Assembly: GCA_036924285.1 (NCBI GenBank)
Contig: JAYKYS010000011.1
Span: 186,001 to 250,000 of the forward strand
Length of the DNA stretch: 64,000 nucleotides
Direction of reading: 5' to 3'
Origin: Asterella californica
Taxonomy: Eukaryota; Streptophyta; Marchantiopsida; Marchantiales; Aytoniaceae
In this document: in pieces, positions 4,731-52,855 of the stretch
Layout: each line of letters begins with the position of its first letter
Numbering within the stretch: position 1 is the first letter of the stretch
Program-made: the position numbers and the translations under genes
The notes under the pieces: model-generated
What the model saw: only the letters and a program-made list of their open reading frames with translations
What the model was told of the DNA's origin: nothing
Databases searched by the model: none

Positions 4731-5214
4731 CTGTCGTAGTGCATGACATTTCACATGATGAAACGGAACTTCAGAAGACACTCAACCAGCATTTGTTCGG
4801 GAAGCTGCACCCTAGCTTATCAAGCTGGGCAGGAGCTAAGCTGGGGCCATGCTTGACAAGCTGCCCCCTAGCTTAGACTGAAATATCACCCTGAAAGAGG
4901 TCGAAGGACATCAGAATGTAGAGCTCGACGAGGAGAGCGACTTCATGCTTCCAGTCTCGACAGAAAGTGTTTTAAGTAATAGTTAGCACGAGTTTTAGAT
5001 TGAGAAATATGTGAAAGAGGGAAATCCGTCGATTCTAGCTCGTGACTCGAACTCAGAATCTGATAGCGTGAGCGTGTAGGTGTTCACAAATACTATAGTT
5101 TTGACTCCTTGTTCATTAAAAATGGAGTTGTATAAAGAAGTTAGTGTAGGAAAGGTTAGTAAAGAATTTACAAGAAAATTTCTTCAGGAAAACATATGTA
5201 CAGAAAATTTTACC
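4731..5214. other. Non-coding tail after integrase fragment
   Basis: About 480 bases with no supported gene. Around 4800-4880 the words AGCTTAGC, AAGCTGGG and AAGCTGCC recur in both orientations and could fold. Similar words recur at 5750-5840, so both may be parts of one LTR/leader family. Confidence 0.4.
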
Positions 5215-5600
5215 TTCTTGAACGGAACCAAAGGTCATCCCAGTGATAGGGCGCCTGCCTAGGAGGAAAGTGGTCTCAAGATCAATCCCCTTGGCCTCTG
5301 GTTCCTATTCCGGCATGTTGGCCTCCTGGAAGGGAGTCTATGTTGGATATGTAGCCACGTCCTGCATATCTAGGGGCGGGAGACTGGTATCTCTCTTAAT
5401 CGTAGGCTTCCTGACCTAATCCTCCGCATGCCATCCTGAATATACTATGGGAGATACCGAGTGCGCATATGGGGGGCTGTAAGCCTTGTGGCGCAGCCTC
5501 ATAAGTGTTGGGACTTCGGCCTACATTGAATGGCTTGTAGTATATTCAGGGTGGCATCAAGATGGCATCAAGAGCACAGGAAACTTTTGCTAATTAGTTA
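5215..5600 (+). mobile_element. Candidate tRNA-derived SINE
   Basis: The head at about 5231-5296 resembles a tRNA gene. An A-box-like CAGTGATAGGGCGCC is followed about 35 bases later by a B-box-like GGTCTCAAGATCAATCCC, and a 5' GGTCA can pair with 3' TGGCC as a short acceptor stem. A body of about 300 bases follows and carries an 18-bp imperfect inverted repeat (5430-5447 with 5538-5555). No poly-A end or target duplication was located, so a degenerate tRNA pseudogene is the alternative. Confidence 0.5.
5430..5555. repeat. Imperfect inverted repeat, 17 of 18 bp paired
   Basis: The left arm 5430-5447 and right arm 5538-5555 share a TAGTATATTCAGG core when one is reverse-complemented. They flank a 90-base loop in the body of the SINE candidate. 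Confidence 0.75.
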
Positions 5601-6239
5601 AATAACCATTGAGTCGACTTGCGAGAGGAATGAGGCTATGAGAACCTTTATTAGTGAAGGAGTAGAGTTTGTGGAGACAACTGTGAAACTTGTATTAAAA
5701 AGGGGCCAACTTTGTAAATAAAGCTCTGTACGCATAAGGACAGCAAGGGGACAGCTTAGCTAGGGCCCTGCTTCTGATAAGTGACTGCGCTTATAAGGAC
5801 AGCAGGGGGGCAGCTTAAGCTGGGGCCTTAACTTTTAGGTTAAATACATGCGGCGGCTTGGGATCGGGGACAGTTTGCAAAAGATTTTTCTGAGAGAGCT
5901 GAAGCGGAAGGAGGAGGATTAGGGATTGGGGGTTGAGGACACGCAAGAGAAGCTAGGAGGCTGGGGGGAAGATCAAATTGCTGACATATTGAATTGAGAG
6001 ATCATCGTAGAGAGAGAGGCAGGAGTTTTAAGCTTGGACGTTGTCTAATAAACTGTTATGAGGAGAAATTACTCTCAGGAGGCAGTTTTATTGAGAGAGA
6101 TCGTTTGAAAATCTACAGAGTACTTTTGATCGACGTTGGATCAAATTTCTGAGAGTTTCAGTTAGGGCAAAGAGAGGAATAAGATTAAGGGACCTGAATT
6201 TCACTATTAGGTTTGGATTGAGACGTACTTGGTAGACTT
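5601..6239. other. Non-coding purine-rich leader-like DNA
   Basis: No gene is supported. The stretch 5880-6010 is rich in GGAG/GAGG and leads into the duplicated block at 6240-7040. It could be the LTR/leader of the element whose start codon lies in that block. Confidence 0.35.
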
Positions 6240-7040
6240 TTGGTTGAGAACTGATTGACGGGAGAGAGAGGCACGCAGGAGAAGAAGAGAGAGATTTCCT
6301 TTACAGTTGAGGAGATTGATGGTGCAACGACACTGAAATAAAGTTATTTGAATCTTGAGAGACCTATCTGTGTACCCAAGGTGTGTTGGAGTGCTTGTTT
6401 TTTGTAATCGGTGGAAGTAAGAAGCAGGATTTTGGAGATCTCATCGTTAGCGTCAGCGAGTATCAATTTTTCTCTTCTGGTTGTTTTTCTGATCGATCAC
6501 AGTCAGGAGGTATGTCCTCCCCAAGAAAGACTCTCTCCACGACAACGGCCCTCTAACATGAGTACTCCAGAAGGTAACACCTCACGCACTCGTAAAATAG
6601 TGCTGCGGTCACGTCCAATGTCGTGAGAGAGGAGAGGAAGAGAGAAGAGATTTCCTTTATAGTTGAAGAGAGAGGGAGAGAGAGACACGCATGAGAGAAA
6701 GAGAGAGAGATTTCCTTTACAATTGAAGAGATTGATGGTGCAGCGACACTGAAATAAAGTTATTTGAATCTTGAGAGACCTATCTGTGTACCTAATGTGT
6801 GTTGGAGTGCTTGTTTTTGTAATCGGTGGACGTAAGAAGCAGGATTTTGGAGATCTCATCGTCAACGTCAGCGACTATCTATTTTTCTCTTCTGGTTGTT
6901 TATCTGATCGATCACAGTCAGGAGGTCCGTCCTCCCCAAGAAAGACTCTCCCCACGACAATGGCCCTCTAACATGAGTACTCCAGAAGGTAACACCTCAC
7001 GCACTCGTAAATAGTGTTGCGGTCACGTCCAATGTCGTCA
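6240..7040 (+). repeat. Tandem duplication, period about 416 bp
   Basis: The block 6240-6632 recurs at about 6655-7040 with few changes. Each copy contains a GA-rich run, the TTTCCTTTACA word (6295 and 6711), and an ATG followed by MSTPEGNTSRTRK (ATG near 6557 and 6972). The short frame ends soon after in each copy. The ATG context suggests duplicated leader plus gag start of a retroelement. It abuts the reverse-oriented integrase relic at about 7000-7040. Confidence 0.75.
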
Positions 7041-8385
7041 GTGCAGTCTGCTGTAGATAGATATAGTCGCCAGGATGAAACCTGCGAATCGACGGTTGAT
7101 AACCTCCTCCTCGGATAGTCGCATATCGCAACGTGTCTCTATGCTGAGCAATCGCTAGGTTCTCAAAAGCCATAAGCATAACTCTCCGAAATGTCTCTGC
7201 TCTTTGAGAACATGCTCTCACCTACATATCCGAGTCCAGCACCTGAGCAGAATCACGACAAATGGCCGAAGGTAGATCTGGATCTCGGCCATACAACAAA
7301 AAATACGGTGAGAAGGAAGCCAAAGACGCTTGTCGGCTGAAACGATAGCCCATAGCCAACCATGGTAACTGCACATCCCAGTATCCCAAGTGGTCCTTCT
7401 ACAAGCCATACTTGCGCAATCCTCTCTTCACTGTCTGAACTACCCTCTCCGTCAAACCATCCGCCTCAGGATGATCTCGAGATGTAGTCCGATGATCAAT
7501 CAGCGCCTGATCACACAAGACCTGAAACTCACCAAGGAACTCTGTACCTTGGTCTGTCAGCACTTCAGCTGGTGCTCCAAAACGACTCAGCACTCGATCC
7601 AAGAACGCGTACGCCGTCCCTTCACTCGCCTTGTCTGGTAATGCCACCAACTCAATCAACTTGGAGAAGTGCTCCATCATCATCAACACATACCGGTGGT
7701 GACGAACGGTTAATGATAAGGGTCCCGCAAAATCTAAACTCCAACGGTAACCCAACCCTATAATCGGTAAGGGGTGTAATTGTGGAGTAGGAGCATTAAA
7801 CGATGCTCGTACTCAATCACAAACCACACATCGTGCGACAAACTGTTGCACATCGACGTGCATATCATGCCACCAATACTGTCCTTGGAGTAAGCTATGC
7901 GTACGCTTCACTCCAAAATGTCCCAACCCCTCATGGGCATGTCGTACTAACTGTGTCCTTGGGATGGATGTGGCACTATCTGTACCCTCCCATCACCCCA
8001 CACTCGAAGTACATGTCGTCCTTCTCGTCGAAATCTCTTCGCTCGTTGAAAGACACGATCTCGCTCCTTAGCACTTACTATGCCTACTACCACACCAATA
8101 CGTAGATACTCCATCATGATCACATCATCATGGATATCTCGCTGGTCTGGAACACCATCTCCACCCTCAAGATACGAAGACTCATCATCTACTCTCTGAT
8201 CAGAGAAAGATACGACTTGGCCCTCTATACTAGAGTTCATGACCAACACACAAAAAAAGATAGATGCATGCCACCTTGACACTATCTCCTCATCAACCTC
8301 GTCATGCTATCGAGCCCCAGTCTGATCCTGCTGACTCATGCACGGTGTCGCGGTACTTGGCGGCTACATGCTTGACTTCTACTCC
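6997..8385 (-). pseudogene. Ty3/gypsy integrase (methyltransferase-bearing element)
   Basis: Read on the minus strand. The zinc-binding (HHCC) domain at about 7960-7795 reads HAHEGLGHFGVKRTHSL and ends with CVVCD. The catalytic core at 7755-7399 has DFAGPLS, LTDQGTEF (second Asp) and DHPEADGLTERVV (region of the catalytic Glu). Further on LLYGRDPDLPSAICRD (about 7310-7240) and a C-terminal RRFHPGDYIYLQQ near 7060 follow in other frames. Several stops and frameshifts separate the pieces, so it is inactive. The lower end runs into the duplicated block at 6240-7040, and the upper end stops near 8385 where non-coding DNA replaces the expected RNase H. Confidence 0.85.
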
Positions 8386-9225
8386 GACGCTTGAGTTTAG
8401 TAGTTCTAGAAGTTAGCTCAGATTACTTCTAGTCCTTTATACATATGTTTGACACCTTTGCATACGGTGTTGACACTATTGTGTTATATATTTTGAGTCT
8501 TAGTAGGTTGATAGTATGTTATCTATCTTGTTCAAGCACTCCTGCGCTTGTGCAAATGATATCATACTTATCTATGTTCTGAAAGTACATAACTTAAGGT
8601 TTCCATGCTGATAGAGTTTAAGCTCATGGGTTGTACTTACTTGTGGCCCATGCACGCTTTCTAGATTGGTTAAGTTGTCTTTTAGGATTACGTGTTATTT
8701 TACATGCCTTCGCGTGAAGTTTAAGATTTACGCTGGCACTTTAGGGGCTGACGTGGTAGCCTTTGAGTGAAGTTGAGTTACCACGTGGATTAGAGCACTA
8801 AAGGACAACCAAGTGGAGATATGGAGCTCCCATTGGTCTGTTTTTGTCTTTAGTTTAACTCTAAATTTAGAAACGGAGCTCTAAAGGAGAGTTCAAGCAT
8901 TTGGTGAGTGGACTTGGAAATCTAAGGACACAGGAGGGTAGAGCTCGTCATGCCAAGCACTTCCAGTGAAATTTTCGATCGATTTGATTCAATAAAGACG
9001 AAGTTATGACCAATTGAAGTTCGAATTGTGCCAGAATTGAATCACTTTTGTTGGATTTAGGGTTTTCAGTGTCACTTGCAGCAGATTTGAGGAAATTGCT
9101 TCAAAACTTCGAGGTTGTGTTCTCTGCCAGAAGGGCTACGATTTCCCAAAAAGTTTCGCATAGATCGAGTGACTGAGTAATTCAGGGCAGCCGCTGAAGT
9201 AGAGGGGGTCTGAAAAGCTCTTAAT
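8386..9225. other. Non-coding insert replacing RT/RNase H
   Basis: About 840 bases without a supported frame lie between the RT N-terminal relic and the integrase, where a gypsy element should carry about 1.3 kb of RT plus RNase H. The composition is LTR-like with many TTAG/CTTG words. It may be a solo LTR or an insertion accompanied by deletion. I could not define its ends. Confidence 0.4.
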
Positions 9226-9560
9226 CTAGAGCAGCGACTTCAGAGGAGGAGATCTGGAGTTTTGTGTACAGTCAGGAGTCCCAACTTCACAGGGGTGTTC
9301 AGCATCCTGCGACATCTCCACCAACCCAGCCTCCAACAAGTCTTGAGTCCTACTCTGGATCAAGGTTCTCCATGTCACTGTATATGTAAGGACGTCGAAT
9401 GATTCACGTGTCATTAGCCAAGTCGATCCGTATACCAGGTCCCTTCAAGGTACCAAAATCCTTCATACTGAAGGCAAAACAATTCCTGTAGCTCTTCAGA
9501 AGTCTTTGAACTCTTCGTCTCTCCTCTCTTATAAGCTTGGGTCCAATCTCTGGCTCCCAA
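9226..9560 (-). pseudogene. Start of gypsy reverse transcriptase, truncated
   Basis: On the minus strand about 9525-9360 reads RLLKSYRNCFAFSMKDFG, LKGPGIRIDL and IIRRPYIYSDM, which is the lead-in to a gypsy RT. It continues as LLEAGLVEMSQ near 9330 in another frame and then loses similarity. Fingers, palm and the YxDD box are absent. It follows the methyltransferase domain directly, so the methyltransferase sits between protease and RT. Confidence 0.75.
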
Positions 9561-9599
9561 GTATCCTCTGTTACCATGTTAGAGGTAGAAGACGAAGTC

Positions 9600-10955
9600 G
9601 TTGACTGCTATCTTGCAGCCTCTGGAGCAGTTTCCTTCTGCTCACCACCAACAACCTCCACCGTTATTGTGCAAAAAACTTCTGCAGTTCTAGCTGCAAG
9701 CTCCACACTCTCTCCTACGACATCCCATGATGTCCAAGGATGACAAACTCCACGTGCCTCGCCCCCAACCTTTGCCTCCACCGACCCAGTAGACAAAGAG
9801 CTCAAGAGTGCTCGAGCAATAACACCCGTCGATCGCATCTGACGATGCTCAAGCAATCCAAGGCTAACAATCCATGTCAAGCAATTCAAGTCAATTGTTT
9901 GATCCAATACTTGACGACGTGAAACCTCCGACACCGAAGCTATGGCCGTCGTACCCGTAACGAAACCCATCGCTCGCTCTCTCTCATCGGCATTGAGCTA
10001 CACCAACTGCCGTAATTGAGCATCCCACACAAGCCCAGGTCCTCCATCTCTGTAAGCATGTGACGTTGGAAAGTTTACCAAAGTTGGTAACGCTATCATG
10101 AGCCGTCTCACTAGGTTCACCACTGCCATGGGTGACCTATCGACGACTCTCACTACTTGAGATCGTCGTCCTGCATCCAAGATGCTATCAACCGTGAGAT
10201 GCGCTGGTTGTCTCACTCCATCGTGTGCGCGCTTAAGCACCTCTCTCAGTAACAAGTTTGTCCACCACAACAGTGGATGATGTGCACGAGATCCTACTCT
10301 CGCTACATCCAACAACACTGCTGGTCCAACCCAAGATCGCACTTGGTGCACACTCGTCATCTTCTGTGTACGAGCATCACCCAACAAAGGAACGTTCTCC
10401 AAGATGTACGCTGGAGAATCCATCTGATGCGTCTGGAGATGTCGTAAGATTCGTAACATCTCCTAGAACATCCTAGATCGCGTGTCATGTACACCCTGAC
10501 CTCTGCCAGCATGCGTGTGACCTTGACATGGCCATCCGGCTATCACCAAGTGAATGATGCCAACAAATGTAAGATCCTGCACCCTCAACAGCGAAATATC
10601 TGACGGTAATACTTGCTGGTATCCTCTAACAACTGATATGGGCAACAACTCAAACGTGCACCAAACGTGCCACATGTCCTAATGAAACGCGTCTCGCAAT
10701 CTCATCTCTCTCCACATACAAGTATCGCTGTACTTGTATGCCTGCCTGCAATACCGTAGCCAAACTTGTGTTGATCTCTCCAAACAGCTCCAACACACAC
10801 ACACCCTCCTCTGGATACTGCCATACAATGGGAGTCGTATCCAACGGTGATAAGGTCACATGGCCAATAGCAAGAACAACCATTTGTTCCTGTACTGGTG
10901 GTACAAAGGCTTCACTCCAAGCCTGCTGCACCAACTGATCAGCATACTGCTGCAA
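9600..10955 (-). pseudogene. Retroelement-borne C5 cytosine DNA methyltransferase domain
   Basis: A DNA cytosine-5 methyltransferase transfers methyl from SAM to cytosine C5. Motifs run in order on the minus strand: motif I as VLELFGEINTS (10768-10796), motif II-like YLYVERDE, motif IV IAGWPCQGHTHAGRGQG with the catalytic Cys (PCQ codons 10523-10531), motif VI ENVPLLGD (ENV codons 10391-10399), motif VIII-like VGSRAHHPLLWWTNL (10253-10297), then a short variable part and a motif IX/X-like RRQVLDQTIDLNCLTW (9872-9919). Motif I normally reads FxGxG; here Glu and Asn replace two glycines, so SAM binding is probably lost. There is one frameshift near 10650-10675 and in-frame TAG codons at 10463-10465 and 9998-10000. 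Upstream (minus) is a protease, downstream the RT start: the domain lies inside a gypsy polyprotein. Family assignment is firm; activity of this copy is unlikely. Confidence 0.85.
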
Positions 10956-11979
10956 CTCTCCACTCGAACTCTAGAGTGGAACATCCAAGGCAGATGATAC
11001 TAACGTAGACATGCTAGACATGTCCTCCACCTCCTCAAAGACCGGAGTATCCTCCGCATGGGCATTGCCCTCCAACAACTCGTCCGACCAAGTGATGATC
11101 GAACTGAATTGCAACGGATGCCATCGTCCCTGGTGTAGGCTATGTCGTCCCAACTCTAGCACTGAACCGCACTGATAAGCGGCTCACTCGTCCCTCACCG
11201 GACTGCCAACCTGGTCTGTAAGATGCTGTCTCCGTCCAATAGTCGATCACGAACCTCATATGGTACAACACCGCACCTCCAACCAATACATCATAAGACT
11301 TTGCGGCTGTAATGATGGCCTTGGCCTTCATCATAAAGCCATCTGTGGGATGATCTGACCGAACTCTCACCGTCAACATCTCACGTGTCATGTGTAGAGC
11401 CGTACCTCTTGATCTCGTTAGAGATGTCTGCAACTGGAATGGACATCTCTCCACCTCGGACTTCTTTAGACCCAAACCAATACACGCCGCCTTTCTCAAC
11501 ATCAATGATCGGGCTCCAGAGTCTAACAAGACCTTCTGGGGTCGATACACTTTCCCTGAAGGTGCCACTAAACAGAAGATATCACTTCTGTTGTCCAACA
11601 ACACCACACCTGGTGCCAAACCAGCACGGTCAATCGCCAGTCTAGCTGGTAACTCATCTAACCTAGCAGCCGCCGCTTGCCAAGTACCACTGGTAGCTGT
11701 CATGATCCTCGACTCCATGGACACGTCTACCACCTCTCGCTGAACTACATCAGCACTAGAGGTAATTACATCCTCGCTCACACTGAGCGTGGCCGCCAAT
11801 TGGAACACTGGAGCCAAGTTGACTCCCAATGCCCTCATATCCGTGGCTGAGAATAGTAGGGCTCGCAAAACTGATGTAGTCGCTCCCAACATCGAGTTCG
11901 ACGTCGCATCCACAGACGTCGAGGGTGGACGCACATCACACCCACTCCTGGATGTCGATGCCTCCAACTCTACTATCAT
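10956..11979 (-). pseudogene. Retropepsin-like aspartic protease region of gypsy polyprotein
   Basis: The 279-residue frame 11979-11140 contains a retropepsin-type stretch VLLDSGARSLMLRKAACIGL (active-site DSG) at about 11550-11490 and the later conserved YDVLVGGAVLYHM near 11300-11250. It cleaves the Gag-Pol polyprotein in active elements. The frame ends in TAG (11140-11142). The polyprotein appears to resume in another frame at 11162-10971, is cut by another TAG (10971-10973), and continues in that frame into the methyltransferase motif I region. Confidence 0.8.
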
Positions 11980-12262
11980 CAGTAGGCCGTTTAGGAACCA
12001 TAGATGTGGTTCTCAACGTCTCCGATAACGTGAACCACTGGGGAAGCCTGGTCTGTCTACCAGCCTCCCCGGGTTGTGGATCCAACTCCACTAACGCACC
12101 TCGTGTCTTGGAGGCACGTATTGCACCTCTAGTCACTGTCGCAGATGTCTCAATCTGCGCCACGCCAGCCATGAAGTCGAAGTCACCTCCTTATCCTCTA
12201 TAAGACGTGAAAGCCTCTATTCCACCTGATCTCCGCTGAGCCATAGCCATACTAGCTATCCT

Positions 12263-13632
12263 CTACTCCAACTGCTCAATCCGAGCAGTTATATCAGCTT
12301 CTGACGTCGTAGCAGACGGTGGACCAACCGGTCCTCTCCCAGGTGCTGGACCTCTACCTCCAGCTCGACCACCACGGCCTTCTTGAGCTCCTTCGCCTCG
12401 TCCACGATCAGCCTTCTCTTGCCAACTCGAGATGGAGATCAAAACAACGGTCACTACTGTGATCAGGTCGTCCGCAATGCTCACATTGCCTAGGTACTGC
12501 TTGAGACGTCCCTGACGTCTCATAACCTCTTCTCTGTGGATAGTCCTTCTGTTGATGAGGACCATCACACGTCCAACAAGGATCCGCTTGCTGCTGGCTA
12601 GAGAAGGACGGTATGGGCTTCTGCCCACCAGATCCTCCAACACCTCCTTGAGATCGTGACTGCTCTGCATGATCCTTACCACCACCACCACCACGCTGTT
12701 GCGTAACCTGTGATCCTCGAGAAGAGGTGGTCGCTCCATGTGATGTCTCCTTGCCGAACCCGACAACCACCACCCTCTCCTCCACCATGTTGAGCTCAAT
12801 CCGCTCAGCCAGACCAAAGACAACCGCCAACGTCGGAGTGGTATCTCTAAGGAGAGTAGCATCTCTAACTCTCATACGCAGCTCCCGGTCTAGTATCCCA
12901 TACCAGAACTGGACTGCCTATGCTTCCGTCACCCCTTGGGTAACGTTGATCAACCGCCTCATGCGAGTAAACGTCTCGCGTAGACTCTCTCTAGTCTTCC
13001 GCTGGAACTCCTGCAGACTAGTAGACTCCTCAACTTGTCGGTCCGCACACCCTGATAGTTCTTCCTCAAACATTGGAAGAACTGAACCACAGGATTAAAC
13101 CCTGGTGGTATCCCACTCACACTATCACATGCTCCACTACTTGTGGACGCACCGCTGGTAGTAGGTACTCCGCCACTTGTAGATGTACCATTGCTATCGG
13201 CACCCGAACTCGCAGGTGTTACGCCTCTCGAAATTACGACAATAGTGATAGAAACGTAGTTGGGAGACCAATGTTGTCTCCACAACTCGATCTCAACACT
13301 GTAAGCTCGCTTGAACTCATGATAATCGTCCATCGGCGGTCCCTCCAAGTGTTGGAACAAACCCTTCCATGCCATGAAGGGTGTAAACAGTTGTGGGTTC
13401 CGCATCTGCTATAGGTCGCACCAACTGTCAACTCCTGGATGAAGTCATCCAGCTCAATGGTACCAACTGTATCCGAGTAACGTCGAGGTCCCTTCGTGGC
13501 TCCATAGATCTCGTCCATGTCCCACAACAACGGTGTGACGACACTAGACTCACCATCAGAAAACGCGTTGTCTGCGTCTGACTCGTCCTCTGGAACAACT
13601 GACGGCAATGGTGTAGGTAGTCGGTACCTCAT
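12263..13632 (-). pseudogene. gag of methyltransferase-bearing gypsy element
   Basis: The capsid-like part spans 13632-12880 in several frames (FQHLEGPPMDDYHEFKRAY, and LINVTQGVTEAQAVQFWYG near 12950). The nucleocapsid part in 12875-12408 has a Gly-rich linker, a degenerate knuckle CWTCDGPHQQKDY (last Cys replaced by Tyr) and an intact CX2CX4HX4C knuckle CEHCGRPDHSSDRC. A further frame reads a Gly/Pro/Arg-rich tail to 12263. Frameshifts break it repeatedly. It is the 5' gene of the minus-strand element, upstream of the protease. Confidence 0.8.
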
Positions 13633-14152
13633 CCCACTCCGTGTATACCCATTGTCCGAGAAGTCCTCACCAAAACCTCTTGAGAACTCAGTGATGAGAG
13701 AATCCCGCTAACACACTCCCCAATCGGAATGTCGCAATCTCCGTCACCACCGTAACCACCACTTGCCTAACCCCGCTCCTACTGAGCTCACCTATTTCCT
13801 ACTAGGACAGTCAAGGTAAAGACAACCTGTACCTGCCATCACCACAGGCAGGCTCTCAAGGTCTGTTGGTCGTCACTCCAACCGCACCGTGAGAGAGACA
13901 AAGATAGTCTAATTGGTCCGCAACTCTAGCTTCACTACCGACAGCACACTGGAGTGAACTCACTCCGGAAATCAAGCGCCAACACAAGCAAACGCGGCGC
14001 ACAAACAGGAAGCAGAATATGGAGGGGTTCCAACCACAAGAAGTCCAAATGATAACTCTCCACACTCAAACATTCACATAAAAGAAAACCCAGTCCCACC
14101 TGGACTGACGACTCTTTATCGGTGACCACATGCACAATATATGGTCACCAAC
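13633..14152 (-). other. 5' leader of the minus-strand gypsy element
   Basis: No coding sequence is supported. Read on the minus strand it lies between a possible LTR end (GTTACGACA near 14153-14161) with a following TGGTGACC stretch that could act as primer-binding site, and the gag start. The primer tRNA could not be identified. Confidence 0.4.
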
Positions 14153-14406
14153 TGTCGTAACTGATACTTGAGATCACTAACTAGATGTCTACACCTCTAG
14201 TAGCTCCAAAAATATCCACGTGGTAGCTCTACTAGCTCACCTAAGACAATTGCCTCCATATGCATCTCTACGGTATAAGCAAACACTACCACAACTATAG
14301 CTTCCCTCTAATACTGTGGGGTCGTCTTACCACTCCTCTAGGGACGTGCGAGAAGGTCTCTTACTACCTTATACAAGTCCATAAGTACTTGCACGCATCC
14401 TTGTAG

Positions 14407-14510
14407 GACACCAAGAGCTATTGGTCTAGTGGTAAAGCCAAAGCTAAGACTACAGAGTTAAGAGTCCAGGTCCAGAAATAGTGTTGAGATGGGTGACCAA
14501 CTGGTTTTAC
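14407..14510 (+). ncRNA. 5S rRNA-like pseudo-sequence (candidate Pol III head)
   Basis: AGTTAAG (14456-14462) is followed 32 bases after its start by GATGGGTGACC, the same words and spacing as in the plant 5S rRNA internal promoter region. Upstream bases (CACCAAGAGCTATT, then AAGACTACAGAG) align loosely with the first half of 5S. The sequence between is diverged, so it is not a functional 5S gene. It could be a 5S-derived SINE head or a 5S segment captured in an LTR, as in Cassandra-type elements. A tRNA-like A box (TGGTCTAGTGGTAAAGCC) overlaps and is the alternative reading. Confidence 0.55.
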
Positions 14511-14619
14511 ACTTCTCACATAACTCGAATTTGGATATCTCTCTCACGCACGCTAGCAAGTTGGCTTGCGACGGGCTCGGGCTCAGGCTTAGGCTCCGCT
14601 CCGCCTCTGCACTTTCGCA

Positions 14620-14684
14620 CTCCGCTCTCACGCCTCCGCACTCACGCACCTCTGCTCCGCTCTCACGCCTCCGCACTCACGCAC
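14620..14684 (+). repeat. Two identical 30-nt C/T-rich units, period 35
   Basis: Bases 14620-14649 and 14655-14684 are identical (CTCCGCTCTCACGCC then TCCGCACTCACGCAC). They lie within a wider CTCCGC/CACGCA-rich stretch, 14570-14710. Confidence 0.9.
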
Positions 14685-15782
14685 ACTCCCGCTCACTCTC
14701 CGCTCCGCTCCGCTTGCAGTAGAGTACAACGGGCACAACACACCAAAAGAGACTCGACTCCACCTCGAATTGCAGAAGATTGCACCAAAAGAGGTTCCAA
14801 AACAGCAAAAACAGCTTGCGAGTGCACACCTAAAATAGCAAGAACACCCAAAGCCAACCCGAACACCACTACAACAAATTCGCAAATGCATCATACACAC
14901 TTCGCGAATGCACACACACACACACAAGAAAACTCCTAAACTCGAGTTTCCACATGAAATTGCACCAAAATCTGACGTAACTAGCCTTTTTGCACTTTCG
15001 GGTGACACGGCAGCGAACTTCGACATGCCATAACTTCTTCGATCCTTGGCCAAACTCCACGAAACTTAGTGCACTAGAATCGTCTCTCCAATGCGCTTCC
15101 AAAGAGCCCACTCCGACCTGACATTGACAAGTACTTCGACTGCCACGTCCAAACGCGCACTCCGGCTCCAACAAGTCACTTCAAAAACATTCCGTAAAAT
15201 TTTTGCAGCGCTTCCGCATGACAAAAAATCTCCACTCGATCTCACAACAGCAATCGATCTGCAACCAGCAATGTAGCATGCGCCCACACACCTTGATCAC
15301 AACTCCAAACAATCAAGCACGAACGACAACGCCCAAAGATACCAGCGGACGATTTCAAATCAGCGGGTTCTTACTGAACTCCATCTCGACTTGCACTCAG
15401 TTCTTCGAGTAATCTGAACAGAGAAATTATTATCTCAAACACTACAACAAAGATTACTCACAAACGGTCAAGCCAAACCCACTCTAAGCACGAAGAGAAT
15501 CCGAGTTACATTCAACTAGACTATCCACCATAGCTTGGAGCTTGAAGGCTCAACTCGAAGAACTAAGGCCTCCAAGCCCTACCTGCGAAGTATACCCCTA
15601 GTGAGCTCTCCCACCAACTCGCCCTAGCGGCACTAACGGTCTTACCGAGATGCGCCACTTCGCACTCGATCAACCTAGCCGAGGTGCCAAACTGACGTGA
15701 CACCTCAGTATGTTCTGCTTGGCTTGATGCAAGATGTATGAGCGTTGTCCTTAGAACTCGATGACGTCCAAGAGACTCTCTC

Positions 15783-17160
15783 TTATGATGTGCTCGAACT
15801 CAAGAGTTTGCAAGCCAAGACAACAAGTGACAACAATATTTTGTTTCCCCGGTACACTAGTTCAAAAAGTTTGTATTCGGTTATGGTGTGGATAGAGTCG
15901 TTGTAGGCGAACTCTATCAGATCTAGGTGTTCCATCCAATCACTTTGATCTCTAAAGATGTAGTTCATAATCCCTTGTTCAGTTACTTGGTTTATTTTCT
16001 CACTTTGGCTCTCCGTTTGTGGATGGTACGTTGTTCTGAACTTCAACGGAGTTCTCATTTGCACGAAAAATGAAGTCCAAAACTCGTTGGAGAATCTTAT
16101 ATCATTATCTGATATAATCTCCTTTGATATTTGAACACATACTTGAAGAATAGTTTGGCTACTTCCGAGACAAAGATGATGATTGTGCATGATATGAAAT
16201 ACGTCATTTTGCTTAGATGATCCATCATTGTTAGGATACAGTCATAACCTTCTTTGATGAAGTCCATGGTTATACTCTCCCAGAAATTTTTGAGTACGAG
16301 AATGGGTTGTAGCAAACCACGAGTCTTTGATGCTCTCGACAGAGTGTCAACATGTGCATTCTTTTTATCTTTGTGATATTTGCACGTCAAGTTGTAACGA
16401 GATAGCTCCAGCTGTCAACGTTGTCGTTTCAACGATAGTTTGGGTTTCGTAGTGAAATAGGCGTTGCTAATGTTGTCAGTGACTATGGTGACTTCACTCT
16501 GCAAGAGATAGTGCTCTCATCGTTTCAAACATCATATTACTGCTAGCATTTCCTGCTCGTGAATCTCCCACTGTGTTGCTTGCTCACTGAATCTATGAGA
16601 CTTGAAAGCTACGAGATGGTCGTTTGCATGAATATCTCATCGATAGCTAATTGTGAAGCATCGGTGTGGATCTCGAACGGCTCCTTTAACTTAAGCAATA
16701 CCAGCATTGGCGCTTCTATGAGTGCTTCGAATGTCTTTTGTTGGAGTAGGTTCCAATGGAATGACTTTTTAGCATCTCTGAAGAGATCAAAGATGGACGA
16801 AGCTATATGCCCAAACTTTCGGATAAACTTCCGAAAATAGGAAATTAAACCCAAGAACGATCTTATCTCTGCTACGGTTTTGAGAACTGACCACTGTTGG
16901 ATGGACTGTATCTTCTTTTTGTTGATGTATAAGCTTTCTTTGTCTATCAAACAACCCAAGAATATAACGCTTTCTTGGTCGAATGAGCACTTAGATGCTT
17001 CAGTACTAATTTCTCTCTTTCTAACTTCTTCAACACCTCTTCTACGTCCTTCAAGTGTTGGGATCAGGTCGAGGAGTAGATTATGATGTCGTCCGAGTAC
17101 ATCATCATTAAATCGTCCAATTGGTCCTTTAAGATGTCATTCATCAATCTACTCTCTTAT
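15783..17160 (-). pseudogene. Second Ty3/gypsy pol relic (RT-RNase H-integrase)
   Basis: On the minus strand: the RT YxDD box as YSDDIIIYSST near 17100-17068; RT thumb/RNase H junction at 16959-16609 with AEIRSFLGLISYFRKFI and PFEIHTDAS (RNase H first Asp); the linker HVDTLSRA; the integrase region with ITMDFIKEGYD near 16270, then SDNDIRFSNEFW and YHPQTESQSEKINQV in 16190-15783. Frameshifts and stops separate the blocks, and the RNase H end and HHCC region are mostly lost. The 5' side (high coordinate) is cut at about 17160, inside RT, so gag and protease are absent. Confidence 0.85.
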
Positions 17161-42217: not shown

Positions 42218-45200
42218 TCACTCTTCAGAGCTTCCGCTCGTACTTCCAACTTGCGTGCGCTGAAAATCAGGTGCTAAGTCGATCTCCTCTTCTGGCTGTT
42301 TCAAACGAAAAGATTGTACGATATAACTAAAGAGTGATTCAGATGAACGACTTGACAATGTGCATCGCCGTCTAGTTTCTTGTCTCTTCCTGAACACATC
42401 TCTACCCACGAACATTTCGGGTATTGGTAACGTAAATTCATCATACCTGCCACCACTGAAGAATGTGCCACAGTATGTAGTCAATGATTACTACAAGACA
42501 AAACAATTTTCCTGCCCAGGGTCCGCAAGCGTTGTACCTGCAATACACGGCAGAAATGCTTCTCAAACTTTCTGATATCTTTCTCCTTCCTCTGAATTTC
42601 TTGCGGCGTGATTCAGCCTTCTCAAGTTACTTTTAAGCAGAGGTCAAAGAAGCAATTAACGAATGTAAGGCGAAAACATACCACTTCAGGCGCATAGGTT
42701 TCGCCTGGAAAGCTAACAACTACAACTTGGCTGGAGAGATTTTAGCTCGAGTAGACTTCACTTTGTGGGCTTGCAAATAGGCGGAATATTACCTCGAAAG
42801 TCGCTGTAGAAGATCCTCATTTCCAGTGTTCATTGCGTGATTATACACACTTTCTGTTCTTTGTGCCACGTCCGGCCAGCTGTAGAGGGTCCCCATCTGC
42901 AATATAAGCACTTGTGTTATCACAAAGTGCCTGGGCCCCTGCCTCACGCTTTCCACTAGCATCAGCTTTTCAAGGGGAAAAGTACATCTATGAAATAGAT
43001 GCGTATTCAATGTTCCGATTGGCATGATATATTTTCAGTAGGGCTAATTTTGTAAAAGCTGGAAATTTGGACTTCTTTTCCCAGCAGAAATCACTGGATG
43101 GATACTTGGTCACAGGAAACTTCTGTAGTAGAAAGAACTAGGGGAACTAGAACTAGAGAGACTTACGGGATTGCAGGTTAAAAACAACGGGGAGGTTCTT
43201 GAAGTGAAACGAGGATAGTGAACGCCTTCTGAACCTAAGGGGGGATTCAAAAGCACGACTTCACCAGCTAAAAGCACACAGCTCTTGTACCACAAAGCAT
43301 AAGACGACGCTTCATCGAAAGTTGGTAATACTTGGTAGTGTATTTCTAGTCTTAATGCCAGAAATTTGACGATGTGACGGGACGGACCACAAAAGCATCC
43401 GTCGTTGCTTACGCAGTTCCAGTTGCAAGTTCATATTGAAGCTAAAATTTCCTACGTAAAACAGTTACCTGGTCATGCATGGCAAAAGGATCAACGCTTG
43501 GAAGAAGCTCAATCGCTTGAGCTATGGCTGCAACCATTCGTGCAGGTATTGGCTCCGCCAAAACAATGTACTCCGGGGGGAGAACCTGCAGTTCACCGAA
43601 TTATCCATACAAGCTCACTCATCTGCTGTTGAGAAAAACATCTAAGATGGCATACAGAAGTTGCAATCCAGCCATAAGCTTCTCTAGATAAATCGCCAAA
43701 GTTCAACACTAGAGGGTCGTCGAATCCATACATGCCTCTGGAACACCACCAACTCGTGTGCTCACTGTGAGCAGTCCACAGCATGCCGCTTCCAAGATAG
43801 CGATACAGAAAGCCTCAGTTAACGAGCTGAGAAGGATAACAGAAAACCAGTAAGAAGATTCCCTGCGAGATCCTCGCTAAAAGTCTAATTTTCATTTCCT
43901 GTGTGAGTGTACCTCTCCTCGAGCAACTGTATTGTACATTCGGACCATCCCCACAAGGCTAGAAACCGACCTGTTGAGAAATATATGACCGCGTATAAGA
44001 ACGCTACGCACGTTAGCGTGAGCAACTGCGCCGAGCATCTCCACTCGCTCTTGCAGATGATACTTTTCTCTCATTTCTTCCAGGCGAACTCTCTTTGGCC
44101 CATCCCCACCAATTATGAACCGGACCTACGTCCGTCCCAAAAAGCCAAAGAAGCGCAAAGGTTGAGAAACACTAGGCTGAGGAGTAGTGTTTGGTTTTAT
44201 CTGTTCTCTAACTAGTCTCCCCCACACGATCACATCATAAGCAGAATAACCCGACTTAATCAGTGGACTGTATATATCAGCAGAGCTCCTTTCACATCCA
44301 GAACCAAAGCTTAATCCTATACAAAAATTCATAGACTTCGATAACGTATATCTTGATACGCGGAAAGCTATTTCCAGAGAAAAAAACAACTTCTTCCACG
44401 CAGTTAGGTAAGCCCAAAGAGTTTTGAACCCATGCAAGCACAAATTGAGTCACAAAAGAGTGGTGAACATGTATGCTCCCTTGGTTCGAGAAGTTATATT
44501 CATACGTCGAGAAAGGGGAAATGTGTAGGAACTCCATAACGTATAGTTAGTCTCAGATATGCGATGTCACTAGAACCTAAAGCTTAATCCACTTGTAAAC
44601 CTCATAAACCTCGATGACGTAAAATTAGTCTCAGATATATCATCACAGATATGCTGATAATAAAATCATACCTGTGGAAACAATCTGCACACTTCCGGGA
44701 TGACCTCCACGAGCAAATCGGCTCCCTTCCGATACACTAATCTACTGATTATCACAATGACGACCTCGTCTTGGATACGTGAACTTGGATCTGGCTGAAA
44801 CATGGCGGTATCTACAGCGTTTGGAATAACAAAAATCTTCTCAGGAGGTAAACGAGACCGAAGATGTGTATTTTCTTTACTGGTATGAGAAACGCAAATT
44901 GCTTGCTGGACATCAGCAAGAGTAAACTCTAAAACTTTATTCATGTGGATGCTCCCTATATCAGCAAATCCGTAAAGAGAATGGTCTGTGAACACGGTTT
45001 TATATCCCATGGTCCGTGCGTGCATGATAGCCTCGTGACACAAGGTAGAAAAGGCCTGATGTCCATGAACTAGTGTGATTCGCTCCCGTACAATTATCGT
45101 CCGAAAAATCGGAAATGTCCCAAACAGAGTAGGAAATGAAGTTTGAAGATAAAATGGGAGCCACGGAATGTAGTAAACCTTGAGCCCGTTAGTCATGTAC

Positions 45201-45523
45201 CGCACTCCACTCCTCCGCCCATACGCATGCGTTGCCACCACCACCTGAGGTTCAAGGTGAACAACCTCTGCTTTGATTCTTGAACTAAAATCAAACAGAA
45301 ATGTTGTTCTCGAGGTTCTATTTCTCTAACAAAAATTCTATACAGCAGAAAGACCACAATTGCTTACCTTATGACCACGCTGCATGAGGCATTGGGCAAG
45401 GTAGTAGATGTGATTCTCAACGCCTCCGAAGTTCGGATAGAAAAAGTCAGAAACCATCAGCACGCGGTGTCGCCTTGGCGGTTCCTCCATGTTCACTGGC
45501 ACGCGAGGCACAACAATGGGCAT
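42218..45523 (-). CDS. PIGA: PIG-A, GPI-GlcNAc transferase catalytic subunit
   Basis: Transfers GlcNAc from UDP-GlcNAc to phosphatidylinositol at the ER, the first step of GPI-anchor synthesis. Exons on the minus strand: 45523-45368, 45244-44672, 44125-43971, 43826-43736, 43585-43469, 42896-42793, 42537-42447, 42295-42218; they join in frame to 454 codons plus TGA (plant orthologues about 447). Visible: [65 protein letters not shown], the GT4 block [73 protein letters not shown], and a C-terminal membrane segment ([19 protein letters not shown]) before an acidic tail. The intron 43586-43735 has a GC donor. The frame is open upstream of the chosen ATG for at least 70 bases, so an earlier start is possible. 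Confidence 0.96.
44126..44671 (-). repeat. Repeat-laden PIG-A intron 2
   Basis: The 546-bp intron contains the inverted partner of 26160-26350 (at about 44340-44530). It also has internal near-duplications: AGAACC-AAAGCTTAATCC at about 44300 and 44573, ATAACGTATA at about 44341 and 44538, and TTAGTCTCAGATAT at about 44548 and 44626. This suggests a nested or duplicated insertion that splicing tolerates. Confidence 0.65.
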
Positions 45524-46683: not shown

Positions 46684-48556
46684 TGTCGTGTCGTGGACCG
46701 ACTCTTACATGAAATTCAAACTTCGATGCTTGTCACTCCAAAGACATTCATGAGAAAGACAAGCTAGACCCCAGCTTACGGACTTTTGGCACAACTTCGG
46801 ATCTTCGCTTTCATCGCATCAGTGGATAGAGCTCCTTGTCAGCATTCCATATGCACTTTGTCTACTTCGTTTGGACGCTTAGTGGAGAAGTTACAAGACT
46901 CGAAAGATAGAGAAAACAAGCTAGGCCCCAGCTTACGGGCTTTTGGCGCAACTTCGGATCTTCACTTTCATCACATAGATGGGTAGAGCTCGTTGTCAGT
47001 TTTCCATGGGCATCTTGTTTACTTCGTTTGGACGTCTAGTGAAAAAGTTATGCGACTCGGAAGAAGGAAAAATCAAGCTAGGCCTTAGGTTACTTGCTGA
47101 CTGGATATTTGAGGCTTCAGACGTTATATCAAAGACGCAAGGGACCTGCTTCATTTTATTAATGATTGTTAAGAGAACTTTGTACGTACAGAGACTGACG
47201 CAAGGGAGCTGCTTAAGGGACTTGCTTGTTCCTACGACTTGTCGGTGGACGTTTTGAAGAATTGGGAAGTCCAATACACGCGCGCAAGGTGTCATCGGGT
47301 TCAGATCTGTGCAGGCTACGCACAAGTTAAGACGGTTTGGAAAGAGACGGATCGGGAGTTGTGTTATGAGAGAAATTGAGACGCAGGAAGCAGATTTGAA
47401 GTTTTCAGTTATCTGTGAAGGAGAGTTGGACCGTTCGGACCGTTCCGGAGTCCAAACTTGTTGTCCTTGGATCCATCGAGATCAGAACAACGAGTTCTTC
47501 AGGAAATTGAAGACGATACGAAGTTTCATCGGGCGGTTTGGGAGTTTTGAGTGAAATTGGCTCGCATGGAAGCGCTTACATCATATTTTTGTTCGTCTAC
47601 GACCTGAGATTGGGTTGTTCTTTGCGATCGGTGAGCCAAGCTCTTCGTTCTTGGTGCCTACGTCATCAGGGAGTCTTCATGTACGCATAGGAGAAGACTG
47701 TACATGAATTGGATTGTTGGGTTGGGTGTGGTGAGCAAGTTTGAGCCGCAGAGAGCTTATTTACGTCAGTTTTTTGCAACCTACGACTAAATTTCTTGCG
47801 TGGTTTTGCAAGGGGAACTCCGAACAGCTTATTTAGGGTCTTGTTGGGTTCAGGGTAGCTAGATCTACCTACCAAAGAAGACAGATATCAGTTTAGACGA
47901 TCCGTTTGTGCGTGGTGTGCGATTTTAAGCCGCATGGAGCAGTTTTTGAAGGTTCGGTCACCTGCGATCGAAAATCAGCGATATCTCGACTATCAAGAGT
48001 TGGATCTGAAAGTTTCTTGGGTTAACAGAGTCAGCAGAAGAGACCCTATCGACATCTGAAGTCCGTTCAGCGAAAGGAGGAAGTCCACAGATAGGCTTTT
48101 TTCAATTTCTTCGCTACAGGTTTTGCTCTTTTGAGTTCGTTAGAGTTCAGGTTGGTCATATACAGCTTGTGGTAGCTAGTTTTGGCTAAGAGCTTGTACA
48201 TGGGTGTGGTTTGGACTTGGGTTTGGATTGCGTGATACTGCTGTGGCTCTGGTTGTTAGCAAAAGAAAGTTTCTCTTGCTTTGAGCTACGCTTCGGTGAT
48301 TTTGGGTCAGGTGTGTGATTCAAGGGTTGTTTTTAGGGGCTTTTGAAGCAGGTTACAGACTGCTCTGGTTTGGTTCTTAGTTCTGTGATCTTAAGAGAAA
48401 GAACCGGTAGTGTACATACATTTGGAGTGTATATATCACAGCGTTCGTTTTCGTGGTTGTTTTTCTCTGTCTTGTCTCTGTTTCAGCACACAGCATCTCC
48501 ACAGCCAAGAACCTCGCGTTTTCCTGGACATCCTTCACGTAAAATCCGACACGACA
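46684..48556 (+). repeat. 5' LTR, 1873 bp
   Basis: Matches 50983-52855 along its full length, with about ten differences in the first 180 positions by eye, so the insertion is not very young. It contains an internal tandem duplication of about 157 bp starting at AAGCTAG (46761 and 46918), with a further partial start near 47072. Confidence 0.92.
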
Positions 48557-48578: not shown

Positions 48579-48713
48579 GGTCTGGGGTAGAGATATTTGT
48601 GTGTTAGAACTGGACAGAAGAGATTAGCAATCATGAACGAGGATGAGGATGGATACTATTGTTCGGGAGGATGTTGCGGATCTGGGATGATGGATTTGTA
48701 GAGAGTTGGGATC

Positions 48714-49958
48714 ATGGGAGGATGGGAGGATGGGAGGATGGGACGAGCCATGACTATGGACGGGATGGACCGATCAGAGGGTATACCAGAGATGCAGTTG
48801 GATGCAGCAACTGCACGATTGTTTCAAGCCTTCACTTTGTTTATGCGTCAAGAGCAAGAGAACCAACAAAAGGAGGCTTTGGGGAAGAAGGCGCTTGGAA
48901 GGGTGATCGACAAGTTCGATCTTTTTGGTGGGAAAGACATCTCTGAGTACTTGAGATGTTACAAGATGGAGATGGATTTGGATCAGGTACCGGAGAAGGA
49001 GATGATCGAGACGTTCGAACTCGCTGCGGTGCTTGAGATAAGGGAGCATGTGAAGGGTCTAGCAAAGCATTTTGGGAGGAATTGGGATACATTTTCACAT
49101 GCGCTGATGGAGGAGTATTTCTTGGGGAACTCAGATCGAGTAACCAAGAAATCGTTTTTGGAATGGATCAACCGATCCAGCAAAGGTTTACAACCTGCAG
49201 AGCTGTTAAAGGAGTTCGAGAGACAATTTTCTCAACTACCTGGGATGGACAAGCTAACCTTGGAGACCTACAAGATAGAGTTGTTTCTTCAAGCTGTTGA
49301 TGAACCATGGCAAGAGCGATTGGAGCTACTTCTAGAGGACAGAGAGGAAGAAGAAGGGTTGACAAGGAATTGGGAGGTTGTGCATGAAGCGGTTGAGCTT
49401 CTTGTTTGGAGACATACAAGGAAAAAGGTTACAAGATCGACACATGTGTCACTGACTACCACACTAGTTCAGGTAGTATTTGAGATTCAACATCCAATTG
49501 TGGTTGTAGAGGAGAAGGATCCAACCATCGAGGACCTACAGCAAAAGATGCAAGATCTGCAAGCTAAGGTAACTAAGTTGGAGGATAAGGGCTCATCGAT
49601 TGAGATGGTGCTTGTACCCAAATCAGCTTGGGTACATCAGTGTGTGTGGTGTGATGATACTGACCATCAACAAGACGATTGCATAGACTTTGCAGAGTCT
49701 TTGCAACGTGAGGTTATTTCTTGGGAGGATGGAAAGGTTGCATTCACAAGTACGGGTACTCTCCTTCAAGCCAACGTTGGTAAAGGAGGGATGAAGAAGT
49801 TGGTGGATGATTATCTTGCGGCACATGCAGTTGTAGCTATCGAAGTTACAAGTTATGGTGCTAGGGTTGAGGAGATTGAGCATGATCTCCATATGGATGA
49901 TTTGGATGAGCATGAAGATCTAAGCGAGCTCAAGTTGGATACTGCATCCACGATGTAG
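48714..49958 (+). CDS. Gag-like protein with one zinc knuckle
   Basis: A 414-residue frame. The N-terminus is repetitive (GGATGGGA units, giving MGGWEDGRMGR). Residues about 55-225 form a retrotransposon-gag-like helical domain: FDLFGGKDISEYLRCYKMEM, REHVKGLAKHFGRNWDTF, LKEFERQFSQLPGMDKLTLE. Residues about 265-295 are a coiled coil (IEDLQQKMQDLQAKVTKLED). A CX2CX4HX4C knuckle, CVWCDDTDHQQDDC, follows at about 310. The C-terminus is acidic. The frame ends at TAG 49956-49958. It would package element RNA. It is the only clear gene of the element and is intact; the start may be a later ATG (MTMDGMDRSEG). Confidence 0.85.
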   Translation: MGGWEDGRMGRAMTMDGMDRSEGIPEMQLDAATARLFQAFTLFMRQEQENQQKEALGKKALGRVIDKFDLFGGKDISEYLRCYKMEMDLDQVPEKEMIETFELAAVLEIREHVKGLAKHFGRNWDTFSHALMEEYFLGNSDRVTKKSFLEWINRSSKGLQPAELLKEFERQFSQLPGMDKLTLETYKIELFLQAVDEPWQERLELLLEDREEEEGLTRNWEVVHEAVELLVWRHTRKKVTRSTHVSLTTTLVQVVFEIQHPIVVVEEKDPTIEDLQQKMQDLQAKVTKLEDKGSSIEMVLVPKSAWVHQCVWCDDTDHQQDDCIDFAESLQREVISWEDGKVAFTSTGTLLQANVGKGGMKKLVDDYLAAHAVVAIEVTSYGARVEEIEHDLHMDDLDEHEDLSELKLDTASTM

Positions 49959-50982: not shown

Positions 50983-52855
50983 TGTCGTGTTGTGGACCGG
51001 CTCCTACATGAAATTCAAACTTCGATGCTTGTCACTCCAAATACACTCATGAGAAAGACAAGCTAGACTCCAGCTTACAGACTTTTGGCACAACTTCGGA
51101 TCTTCGCTTTCATCGCATCAGTACATAGAGCTCCTTGTCAGCATTCCATAGGCACTTTGTCTACTTCGTTTGGACGCTTAGTGGAGAAGTTACAAGACTC
51201 AAAAGATGGAGAAAACAAGCTAGACCCCAGCTTACGAGCTTTTGACGCAACTTCGGATCTTCACTTTCATCACATAGATGGGTAGAGCTCGTTGTCAGTT
51301 TTCCATGGGCATCTTGTTTACTTCATTTGGACGTCTAGTGAAAGAGTTATGCGACCCGAAAGAAAGAAAAATCAAACTAGGCCCTAAGTTACTTGCTGAC
51401 TGGATATTTGAGGCTTCAGGCGTTATATCAAAGACGCAAGGGACCTGCTTCATCTTATTAATGATTGTTAAGAGAACTTTGTACGTATAGAGACTGACAC
51501 AAGGGGGCTGCTTAATGGGCTTGCTTGTTCTTGCGACTTGTCGATGGACGTTTTGGAGAATTGAGAAGTCCAATACACGCGCGCAAGGTGTCATCGGGTT
51601 CAGATCTGTGCAGGCTACGCACAAGTTAAGACGGTTTGGAAAGAGACGGATCGGGAGTTGTGTTCTGAGAGAAATTGAGACGCATGAAGCAGATTTGAGA
51701 TTTTCAGTTATCTATGAAGGAGAGTTGGACCGTTCGGGCTGTTCCAGAGTCCAAACTTGTTGTCCTTGGATCCATCGAGATCAGAACAACGAGTTCTTCA
51801 GGAAATTGAAGACGATACGAAGTTTCATTGGGCGGTTTGGGAGTTTTGAGTGAAATTGGCTCGTAGGGAAGCACTTATATCAGATTTTTGTTCGCATGCG
51901 ACCTGAGATTGGGTTGTTCTTTGCGATCGATGAGCCAAGCTCTTCGTTCTTGGTGCCTACGCGATCATGGAGTCTTCATGTACGCATAGGAGAAGACTGT
52001 ACATGAATTGGATTGTTGGTTTGGGTGTGGTGAGCAAGTTTGAGCCGCATGGAGCTGATTTACGTCAGTTTTTTGCAACCTACGACTAAATTTCTTGCGT
52101 GGTTTTGCAAGGGGAACTCCGAACAGCTTATTTAGGGTCTTGTTGGGTTCAGGGTAGCTAGATCTACCTACCAAAGAAGACGGATATCAGTTTAGACGAT
52201 CCGTTTGTGCGTGATGTGCGGTTTTAAGCCATAGAGAGCAGTTTTTGAAGGTTCGATCACCTACGACCGAAAATCAGCGATATCTCGACTATCAAGAGTC
52301 GGATCTGAAAGTTTCTTGGGTTAACAGAGTCAGCGGAAGAGACCCTATCGACATCTGAAGTCCGTTCAGCGAAAGGAGGAAGTCCACAGATAGGTCTTTT
52401 TCAATTTCTTCGCTACGGGTTTTGCTCTTTTGAGTTCGTTAGAGTTCAGGTTGGTCATATACAGCTTGTGGTAGCTAGTTTTAGCTAAGGGCTTGTACAT
52501 GGGTGTGGTTTGGACTTGGGTTTGGATCGCGTGATACTGCTATGGCTCTGGTTGTTAGCAAAGGGAAGTTTCTCTTGCTTTGAGCTACGCTTCGGTGATT
52601 TTGGGTCAGGGTTGTGATTCAAGGGTTGTTTTTAGGGGCTTTTGAAGCAGGTTACATACTACTCTGGTTTGGTTCTCAGTTCTGTGCTCTTAGGAGAAAG
52701 AACCGGTAGTGTACATACATTTGGAGTGTATATATCGCAGCGTTCGTTTTCGTGGTTGTTTTTCTCTGTCTTGTCTTTGTTTCAGCACACAGCATCTCCA
52801 CAGCCAAGAACCTCGCATTTTCTTGGACATCCTTCACGCAAAATCCGACACGACA
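50983..52855 (+). repeat. 3' LTR, 1873 bp
   Basis: Partner of 46684-48556, same length, starting TGTCGTGT and ending ACACGACA. It carries the same internal 157-bp tandem duplication. Confidence 0.92.

Follow-up and report, generated by a model that had tools for sequence, protein, structure and literature searches.

The element described here resembles three kinds of known retroelements, which we compare through those parts of their published accounts that were available to us. KnitGypsy-Dnmt3 of Klebsormidium nitens (PMC5890265) combines a gypsy domain set with a Dnmt3-related methyltransferase (MT) that has conserved key residues and is under purifying selection, and according to the legends of that paper its repeats follow a DIRS-like arrangement, A-coding-B-A-B. 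SymbioDIRS (PMC5890265), PAT and Ngaro (PMC4157794) have split direct repeats of the order A1-B1-A2-B2; DIRS types may carry a methyltransferase, which is Dam-like (adenine) outside SymbioDIRS. The Tf1/sushi and Tcn1 Ty3/gypsy elements (PMC6317226) use self-primed reverse transcription. We analysed a 64,000-nucleotide stretch of the genome of the bryophyte Asterella californica (the window; contig JAYKYS010000011.1, positions 186,001 to 250,000, assembly GCA_036924285.1), whose minus strand holds a Ty3/gypsy element copy, now decayed, between 15702 and ~6962. Judged from its sequence, this copy is near certain to be a member of a large Ty3/gypsy family with a Dnmt3-like C5 cytosine MT.

The family shares traits with all three kinds and differs from each. 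In KnitGypsy-Dnmt3 the MT lies in the Pol open reading frame (ORF), whereas here it lies in the Gag-protease (PR) ORF before a UAG stop, which sets the two apart by description; we met no self-primer, readthrough context, target site duplications (TSDs), joint variation or mechanism for KnitGypsy-Dnmt3 in the available parts of PMC5890265. DIRS, PAT and Ngaro elements have a tyrosine recombinase and no integrase, in contrast to the DDE integrase, TG...CA ends and 4-bp TSDs found here. Tf1/sushi and Tcn1 are chromodomain elements, whereas the present family has a PHD finger at the integrase C-terminus and no chromodomain among its listed domains.

The original prediction for this locus had named retrotransposon C5-methyltransferases of dinoflagellates and a charophyte alga as precedents, and these are real (de Mendoza 2018, PMC5890265). 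In the literature that we found, a DNMT-bearing gypsy element is already known from one charophyte alga; the available part of PMC12344493 refers, with the 2018 paper as its source, to DNMT3s in retrotransposons of streptophytes and dinoflagellates, and names Copia and DIRS. We found no account of a DNMT-bearing gypsy element in bryophytes or chlorophytes among the open-licence papers listed in our searches, nor in the available parts of PMC12344493 and PMC6317226, the text of the latter having zero occurrences each of methyltransferase, PHD and Marchantia. New here are the MT in a Gag-PR ORF, the leaky-type stop, the self-priming arrangement, the split repeats of a DDE element, with their joints measured, and the wide range of relatives. 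The family, here in a bryophyte, is high in copy number and recently active, its relatives extend across streptophytes and chlorophytes, and it bears on why mobile elements carry methyltransferases. Its ends give a concrete model (self-priming, joined ends of the complementary DNA (cDNA), an internal integrase site) for the replication of split-repeat retroelements, and the laboratory plant Marchantia has close relatives of the element, which brings tests within reach. Our best explanation as a whole comprises an MT-bearing gypsy family, its proposed replication and self-methylation, and we give it slightly better than an even chance of being right.

Intact copies carry the MT in the Gag-PR ORF

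The locus came to attention through C5 methyltransferase motifs that seemed to lie inside a Ty3/gypsy element, and motifs IV and VI do stand on the minus strand between the protease motif LLDSGA and the start of ORF2 (9607). The MT region of the window copy (10970-9608, minus) is split over four open pieces with no single frame, its decay comprising a change of motif I from FGGIST to FGEINT, extra stops and one frameshift. A PF00145 search had been suggested as a check. When the window pieces were scanned alone, the motif IV piece reached E 0.0014 and 18.6 bits, under the 22-bit cut-off, and had a TIGR00675 dcm match (E 4.8e-5) that fell far short of the threshold of this model; none of the three remaining MT pieces matched a Pfam methylase. 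The MT of an intact copy passes PF00145 with 36.4 bits. Elsewhere in this genome, an intact copy has an MT with which three of the window MT pieces share 78-82% identity when aligned. Because of this alignment, the 93% DNA identity of ORF1 and the PF00145 scores of intact copies, the window motifs are not a chance resemblance.

Across the 517-Mb genome, PF00145 gave at least 123 scored matches out of 1250 candidates, including a small number of host Dnmt genes, and the intact MT protein gave at least 118 out of 4283; both counts are lower bounds that cover the best-scoring matches only. Intact copies, for which a genome search had been proposed, are plentiful: among the 118 best-scoring MT matches, 42 are located within a complete, open ORF1 (at least 1367 aa, with no stop in the MT). 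ORF1 of intact copies encodes Gag with two CCHC-like motifs, PR (DSGA) and, as the last domain, the MT. ORF2 encodes reverse transcriptase (RT), RNaseH, integrase (INT; H2C2, rve) and a C-terminal PHD finger (PF00628, E 9.1e-11), and the copies have the Ty3/gypsy domain order PR-RT-RNaseH-INT, with RNaseH before INT. Since intact copies hold the MT in one ORF with Gag and PR, the domain is the C5 methyltransferase of a gypsy element, as predicted.

A single in-frame UAG followed by CAG UCA separates ORF1 from ORF2 at 22 of 22 loci (18 distinct copies, the window copy included), 21 of them found by pattern and one, L007, being the only further locus holding the site. According to the available part of PMC5382211, tobamoviruses, among others, have UAG-CARYYA as their type I readthrough motif. 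From this context, the MT should be made at the level of Gag, and RT-INT only via readthrough. The predicted placement between PR and RT therefore stands with a refinement, in that the MT belongs to the Gag-PR ORF upstream of the leaky-type stop and not with RT.

Fold, selection and probable activity of the MT

The MT is Dnmt3-like in fold, with motifs I, IV, VI, VIII and X following one another without permutation, and the whole catalytic fold is predicted for it. The catalytic domain of DNMT3A/DNMT3B is its best sequence and fold match; DNMT2 ranks well behind the DNMT3 type, and identity in the listed structure alignments is about 17-24%. It differs from DNMT3A/DNMT3B in having GWPCQ in place of SPCN, and the retroelement MTs stand apart from the Dnmt3 rows of the tree described below. 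Neither a PWWP nor an ADD domain is among the Pfam matches of ORF1. In a 32-row alignment, the motif VI Glu is invariant and the motif IV Cys and Gln and the motif VIII Arg are nearly so. The ratio of nonsynonymous to synonymous substitution rates (dN/dS) among copies is 0.14-0.18 for the MT (17 loci, with subfamily groups set by inspection, L008 in neither, and the S2 members L005 and L013 carrying an MT stop), which indicates purifying selection. Selection and the conserved catalytic residues together argue that the MT is probably an active enzyme.

Several points weigh against activity. The activity of the MT is a prediction from sequence; its dN/dS is higher than that of RT (0.058, 0.073); and among the retrotransposon DNMTs tested in yeast, activity was detected only for SymbioDIRS, as far as the available part of PMC5890265 tells. 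The fold could instead be kept for nucleic-acid binding or polyprotein folding, a reading that would suit both the yeast result, in which only SymbioDIRS domains were active, and the ECQ that stands in place of PCQ in 72 of the 130 relatives with a readable motif. It fits poorly with the invariant motif VI Glu, the near-invariant residues of motifs IV and VIII, the low dN/dS of the MT and the complete catalytic fold predicted for it, and we consider a non-catalytic MT unlikely.

Relatives and phylogeny

With the MT part of ORF1 as query, 40 proteins were matched: 15 from Marchantia polymorpha (with MT identities of 71 and 64% for the two best), 1 from Sphagnum fallax, 2 from Closterium and 22 without an organism name. 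A distant-relative query matched 235 proteins, and the 120 listed include Haematococcus lacustris, Monoraphidium neglectum and a Chromochloris record; no K. nitens protein is named among the 40 matches or among the 120 listed of the 235. Relatives in Marchantia, Sphagnum, Closterium and chlorophytes also join the MT with gag or pol domains. Read with simple patterns, the motif order in 155 relatives was RT before MT in 85, MT before RT in 5, PR-MT without RT in 18 and unordered in 47, with motif IV unread in 25. The motif in the catalytic loop could be read in 130 MTs; in 72 of these, Closterium and Haematococcus included, ECQ replaces PCQ and the Cys is kept. A scan of viral contigs gave 74 loci at 24-55% identity, and a second viral-contig scan found no relative.

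We built a tree of 46 MTs chosen from 278 MT domains. Retroelement queries supplied its retroelement rows and a Dnmt3 query the remaining ones; no row stands for DNMT1, CMT, DRM or Klebsormidium. One branch (100/99) has the 31 retroelement MTs on one side, where Marchantia, Closterium, chlorophytes and the present family group together; host Dnmt3 groups with Sphagnum Dnmt3 (100/100) on the opposite side. In this comparison, then, the retroelement MTs stand apart from host Dnmt3, and a recent capture of this host's own Dnmt3 is unsupported, since the host gene groups with that of Sphagnum. The tree speaks against such a capture without settling the deeper origin of the MT.

The same data bear on an alternative set out from the start, which takes the domain for a piece of a host gene that happens to lie within the element or next to it; nothing was found in its favour. 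Host Dnmt3 lies elsewhere in the genome and across the tree, the MT is encoded in many copies together with Gag and PR in a single ORF and is under selection, and the MTs of relatives are likewise joined to gag or pol domains; we see practically no chance that this alternative is right. By eye, the loci L014, L015 and L016 are host Dnmt3 (with GFPCQD, not SPCN) and two loci with a DRM-like rearranged motif order.

Ends of intact copies and a proposed replication route

Intact copies are laid out as A1 (294 bp), ORFs, B1 (108 bp), gc, A2 (294 bp) and B2 (108 bp), with outer ends TGTC...GACA, and 6 of the 7 copies first examined have this split-repeat layout. They do not end in identical full long terminal repeats (LTRs): the left end is A only and the right end is B-gc-A-B. 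To describe the ends we used 46 copies, 40 chosen from match lists (the second 20 mostly with a full ORF1) plus 6 of the 7 first examined, with L023, L025 and L026 left out; 7 of the 46 showed no A2|B2 joint, 8 no B1|A2 gap, and in 36 at most one of the two TSD edges was seen. The 4-bp TSD is exact in 7 of the 10 copies with both edges seen and has one mismatch in the other 3. A tyrosine-recombinase element was considered and rejected, as an rve integrase and TSDs are present; no tyrosine recombinase domain occurs in the parts scanned. A1 and A2 are identical or nearly so in the six first copies, and among the 25 of 40 later copies that could be compared they are identical over the stretch seen in 9, the lowest value being 95.8%. 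This high identity indicates that many insertions are recent.

The two internal joints behave differently. B1|A2 is gc in 38 of 38 copies, normally within a perfect GACAgcTGTC palindrome. A2|B2 was seen in 39 of the 46 copies; 30 of these share one form, and the other 9 deviate from it, with an extra A (four), an extra T (two), CT (one), a 23-nt insert (one) or ggcg (one), the last being a sequence found just before B1. The variation of A2|B2 against the constant B1|A2 joint gives p 0.002 in a Fisher test. Right ends found via A2-B2 (best 40 of 2942 candidates) favour one joint form by design and were excluded from this comparison.

In 32 of 32 copies, and also in the window copy, a stretch of 11 nt inside A matches exactly, as reverse complement, the 11 nt that immediately follow A1. 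This test was pattern-free and covered 32 of the 46 copies; an earlier pattern that fixed 6 of the 11 positions gave the same result. The paired sites covary, as TTTGAG/CTCAAA in 28 copies, TTCAAG/CTTGAA in 3 and TTCGAG/CTCGAA in 1 as well as the window copy, and the chance of one such match in A is ~7e-5. With its predicted RNA start, an RNA 5' end complementary to the primer binding site (PBS) is the Tf1/sushi-type self-priming arrangement, and under self-priming the element RNA would be expected to begin at AGTTCTTTGAG. We take the Tf1 self-primer to be 11 nt long.

On this basis we propose the following route. Self-primed reverse transcription, given a priming site behind A and a G-rich tract ahead of B1, would produce an ordinary linear cDNA with the LTR B-gc-A at both ends. 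The cDNA ends (the end of A and the start of B) would then be joined at what becomes A2|B2, a circle being the simplest product. After this, the DDE integrase would cut the joined DNA at one of the two internal GACAgcTGTC palindromes, with loss of gc, and insert it, leaving the integrated form A-ORFs-B-gc-A-B. The small variation of A2|B2 fits end joining, because it is located exactly at the cDNA ends, and the end repeats suggest insertion by way of a DNA circle. By its domains, we describe the element as an aberrant gypsy-type one, whose cDNA would have normal LTRs. Some observations count against this route: one of the seven first copies (C526:31060531) showed no such repeats in the pieces fetched; with 30 of 39 A2|B2 joints in one form, joining is mostly precise; and the circle is deduced from joints in genomic copies alone, where a head-to-tail concatemer would give the same product. 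We regard the replication model as a whole as reasonably probable.

Possible roles of the MT

The fusion to Gag-PR and the DNA intermediate argue that the MT methylates the element's own DNA. Made at the Gag level, the MT would travel in the particle and, no later than integration, methylate newly made element DNA, for which the circle is the most plausible form. Such self-methylation is the best of several roles, and we hold it tentatively, at somewhat under an even chance. The substrate might instead be RNA, either genomic RNA or the primer, since self-priming would place the RNA 5' end beside the enzyme in the particle; the nearest sequences are DNMT3-type DNA enzymes, well ahead of DNMT2, and this makes an RNA substrate quite improbable.

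A further alternative is that the MT acts in trans on host chromatin or on other copies, maintaining or spreading silencing or limiting copy number. The MT is of a Dnmt3-like, de novo type, the integrase protein ends in a PHD finger of the chromatin-reader type, and the host has its own Dnmt3 and two DRM-like loci (by eye), all of which would suit such a role. Fusion to Gag-PR upstream of a leaky-type stop favours packaging instead, and purifying selection would be hard to sustain for a self-limiting function in spreading copies, so that we judge action in trans unlikely.

The original prediction suggested that such an element could shape host methylation or mark its own copies; base composition does not favour self-methylation. 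There is no extra CG depletion: CG observed/expected is 0.75-0.76 in three intact copies, two of them near-identical, and 0.71-0.80 elsewhere in the window and in three host-gene regions. As the copies resemble these other stretches, they bear no trace of heavy CG self-methylation. The window copy, compared with one intact copy as a proxy for its older state, shows 170 C-to-T against 43 T-to-C changes, with C-to-T rates of 13.5% in CHG, 6.6% in CG and 5.8% in CHH. This CHG-strongest pattern fits host methylation equally well or better.

A broader conjecture has three parts, namely that a DDE retrotransposon integrates from circular 2-LTR-type DNA cut at an LTR palindrome, with its own Dnmt3-like enzyme acting on the circle; that MTs tend to sit in circle-passing retroelements (DIRS, SymbioDIRS, KnitGypsy and the present family); and that the gypsy MT of the green lineage may be one old capture, moved between PR-RT and RNaseH-INT positions, as opposed to separate captures, of which the one inferred for Klebsormidium is an example. 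We offer it as speculation that we would sooner expect to fail than to hold.

The window copy and its surroundings

The window copy is dead (Table 1). A first repeat search of window 5000-16000 gave no ordinary LTR pair, because the repeats are split and the right end is lost; B1, A2 and B2 of the element were not found in the window. The 3' part of the element contains a ~415-bp-spaced tandem duplication (window 6262-7011).

Table 1. Recognisable parts of the decayed element copy, in window coordinates.
Feature	Window position	Strand	Evidence
Left terminal repeat A1, starts TGTC	15410..15702	-	91% identical to A of intact copy (blastn of A against window)
Putative RNA 5' end / self-primer AGTTCTTCGAG	15554..15564	-	Matches the reverse complement of the 11-nt PBS exactly
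Putative PBS CTCGAAGAACT, directly after A1	15399..15409	-	Covaries with self-primer in other copies
ORF1 remains (Gag-PR-MT)	9599..13715	-	93% DNA identity to intact 1370-aa ORF1
Gag part with CCHC-like knuckle	12408..12917	-	PF00098 E 0.22, below cut-off; intact ORF1 has CCHC-like motifs
Protease region	11140..12012	-	PF13975 E 0.16, weak; LLDSGA at 11529-11512
MT piece 1, degraded motif I (FGEINT)	10650..10970	-	
MT piece 2, motif IV AGWPCQGH (10540-10517), catalytic Cys codon 10528-10526	10463..10678	-	PF00145, TIGR00675
MT piece 3, motif VI ENVPLLGD (10399-10376), motif VIII-like stretch, target-recognition region	9998..10462	-	
MT piece 4, C-terminal motifs NADERERAMGF and LNCLTWIVSLG, ORF1 stop	9608..9997	-	
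ORF1 stop UAG with CAG UCA (CARYYA readthrough context)	9602..9610	-	Motif definition from PMC5382211
Surviving ORF2 start (upstream of and into RT), remaining RT missing	9308..9607	-	10% of RT found
Integrase core (rve)	7399..7812	-	PF00665 E 2.2e-12
Remaining ORF2 part matching intact copy	6962..8345	-	

Directly upstream of the element's left end lie pieces of a different Ty3/gypsy pol-like sequence (window 15786-17136, minus), with RT_RNaseH_2 at 16612-17136 (E 1.4e-5, below cut-off) and an integrase-like part by eye at 15786-16241, where a weak AbiJ_NTD4 match is the only Pfam result. An open piece of PIGA (GPI-anchor biosynthesis; window 44666-45325, minus, PF08288 E 1.2e-45) is an ordinary host gene exon. 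A 418-aa open frame (window 48702-49955, plus) has no Pfam match and looks by eye like the Gag of another element; it is flanked by two arrays of 157-bp period with very similar units (46752-47084 and 51051-51384), possibly the terminal repeats of one element.
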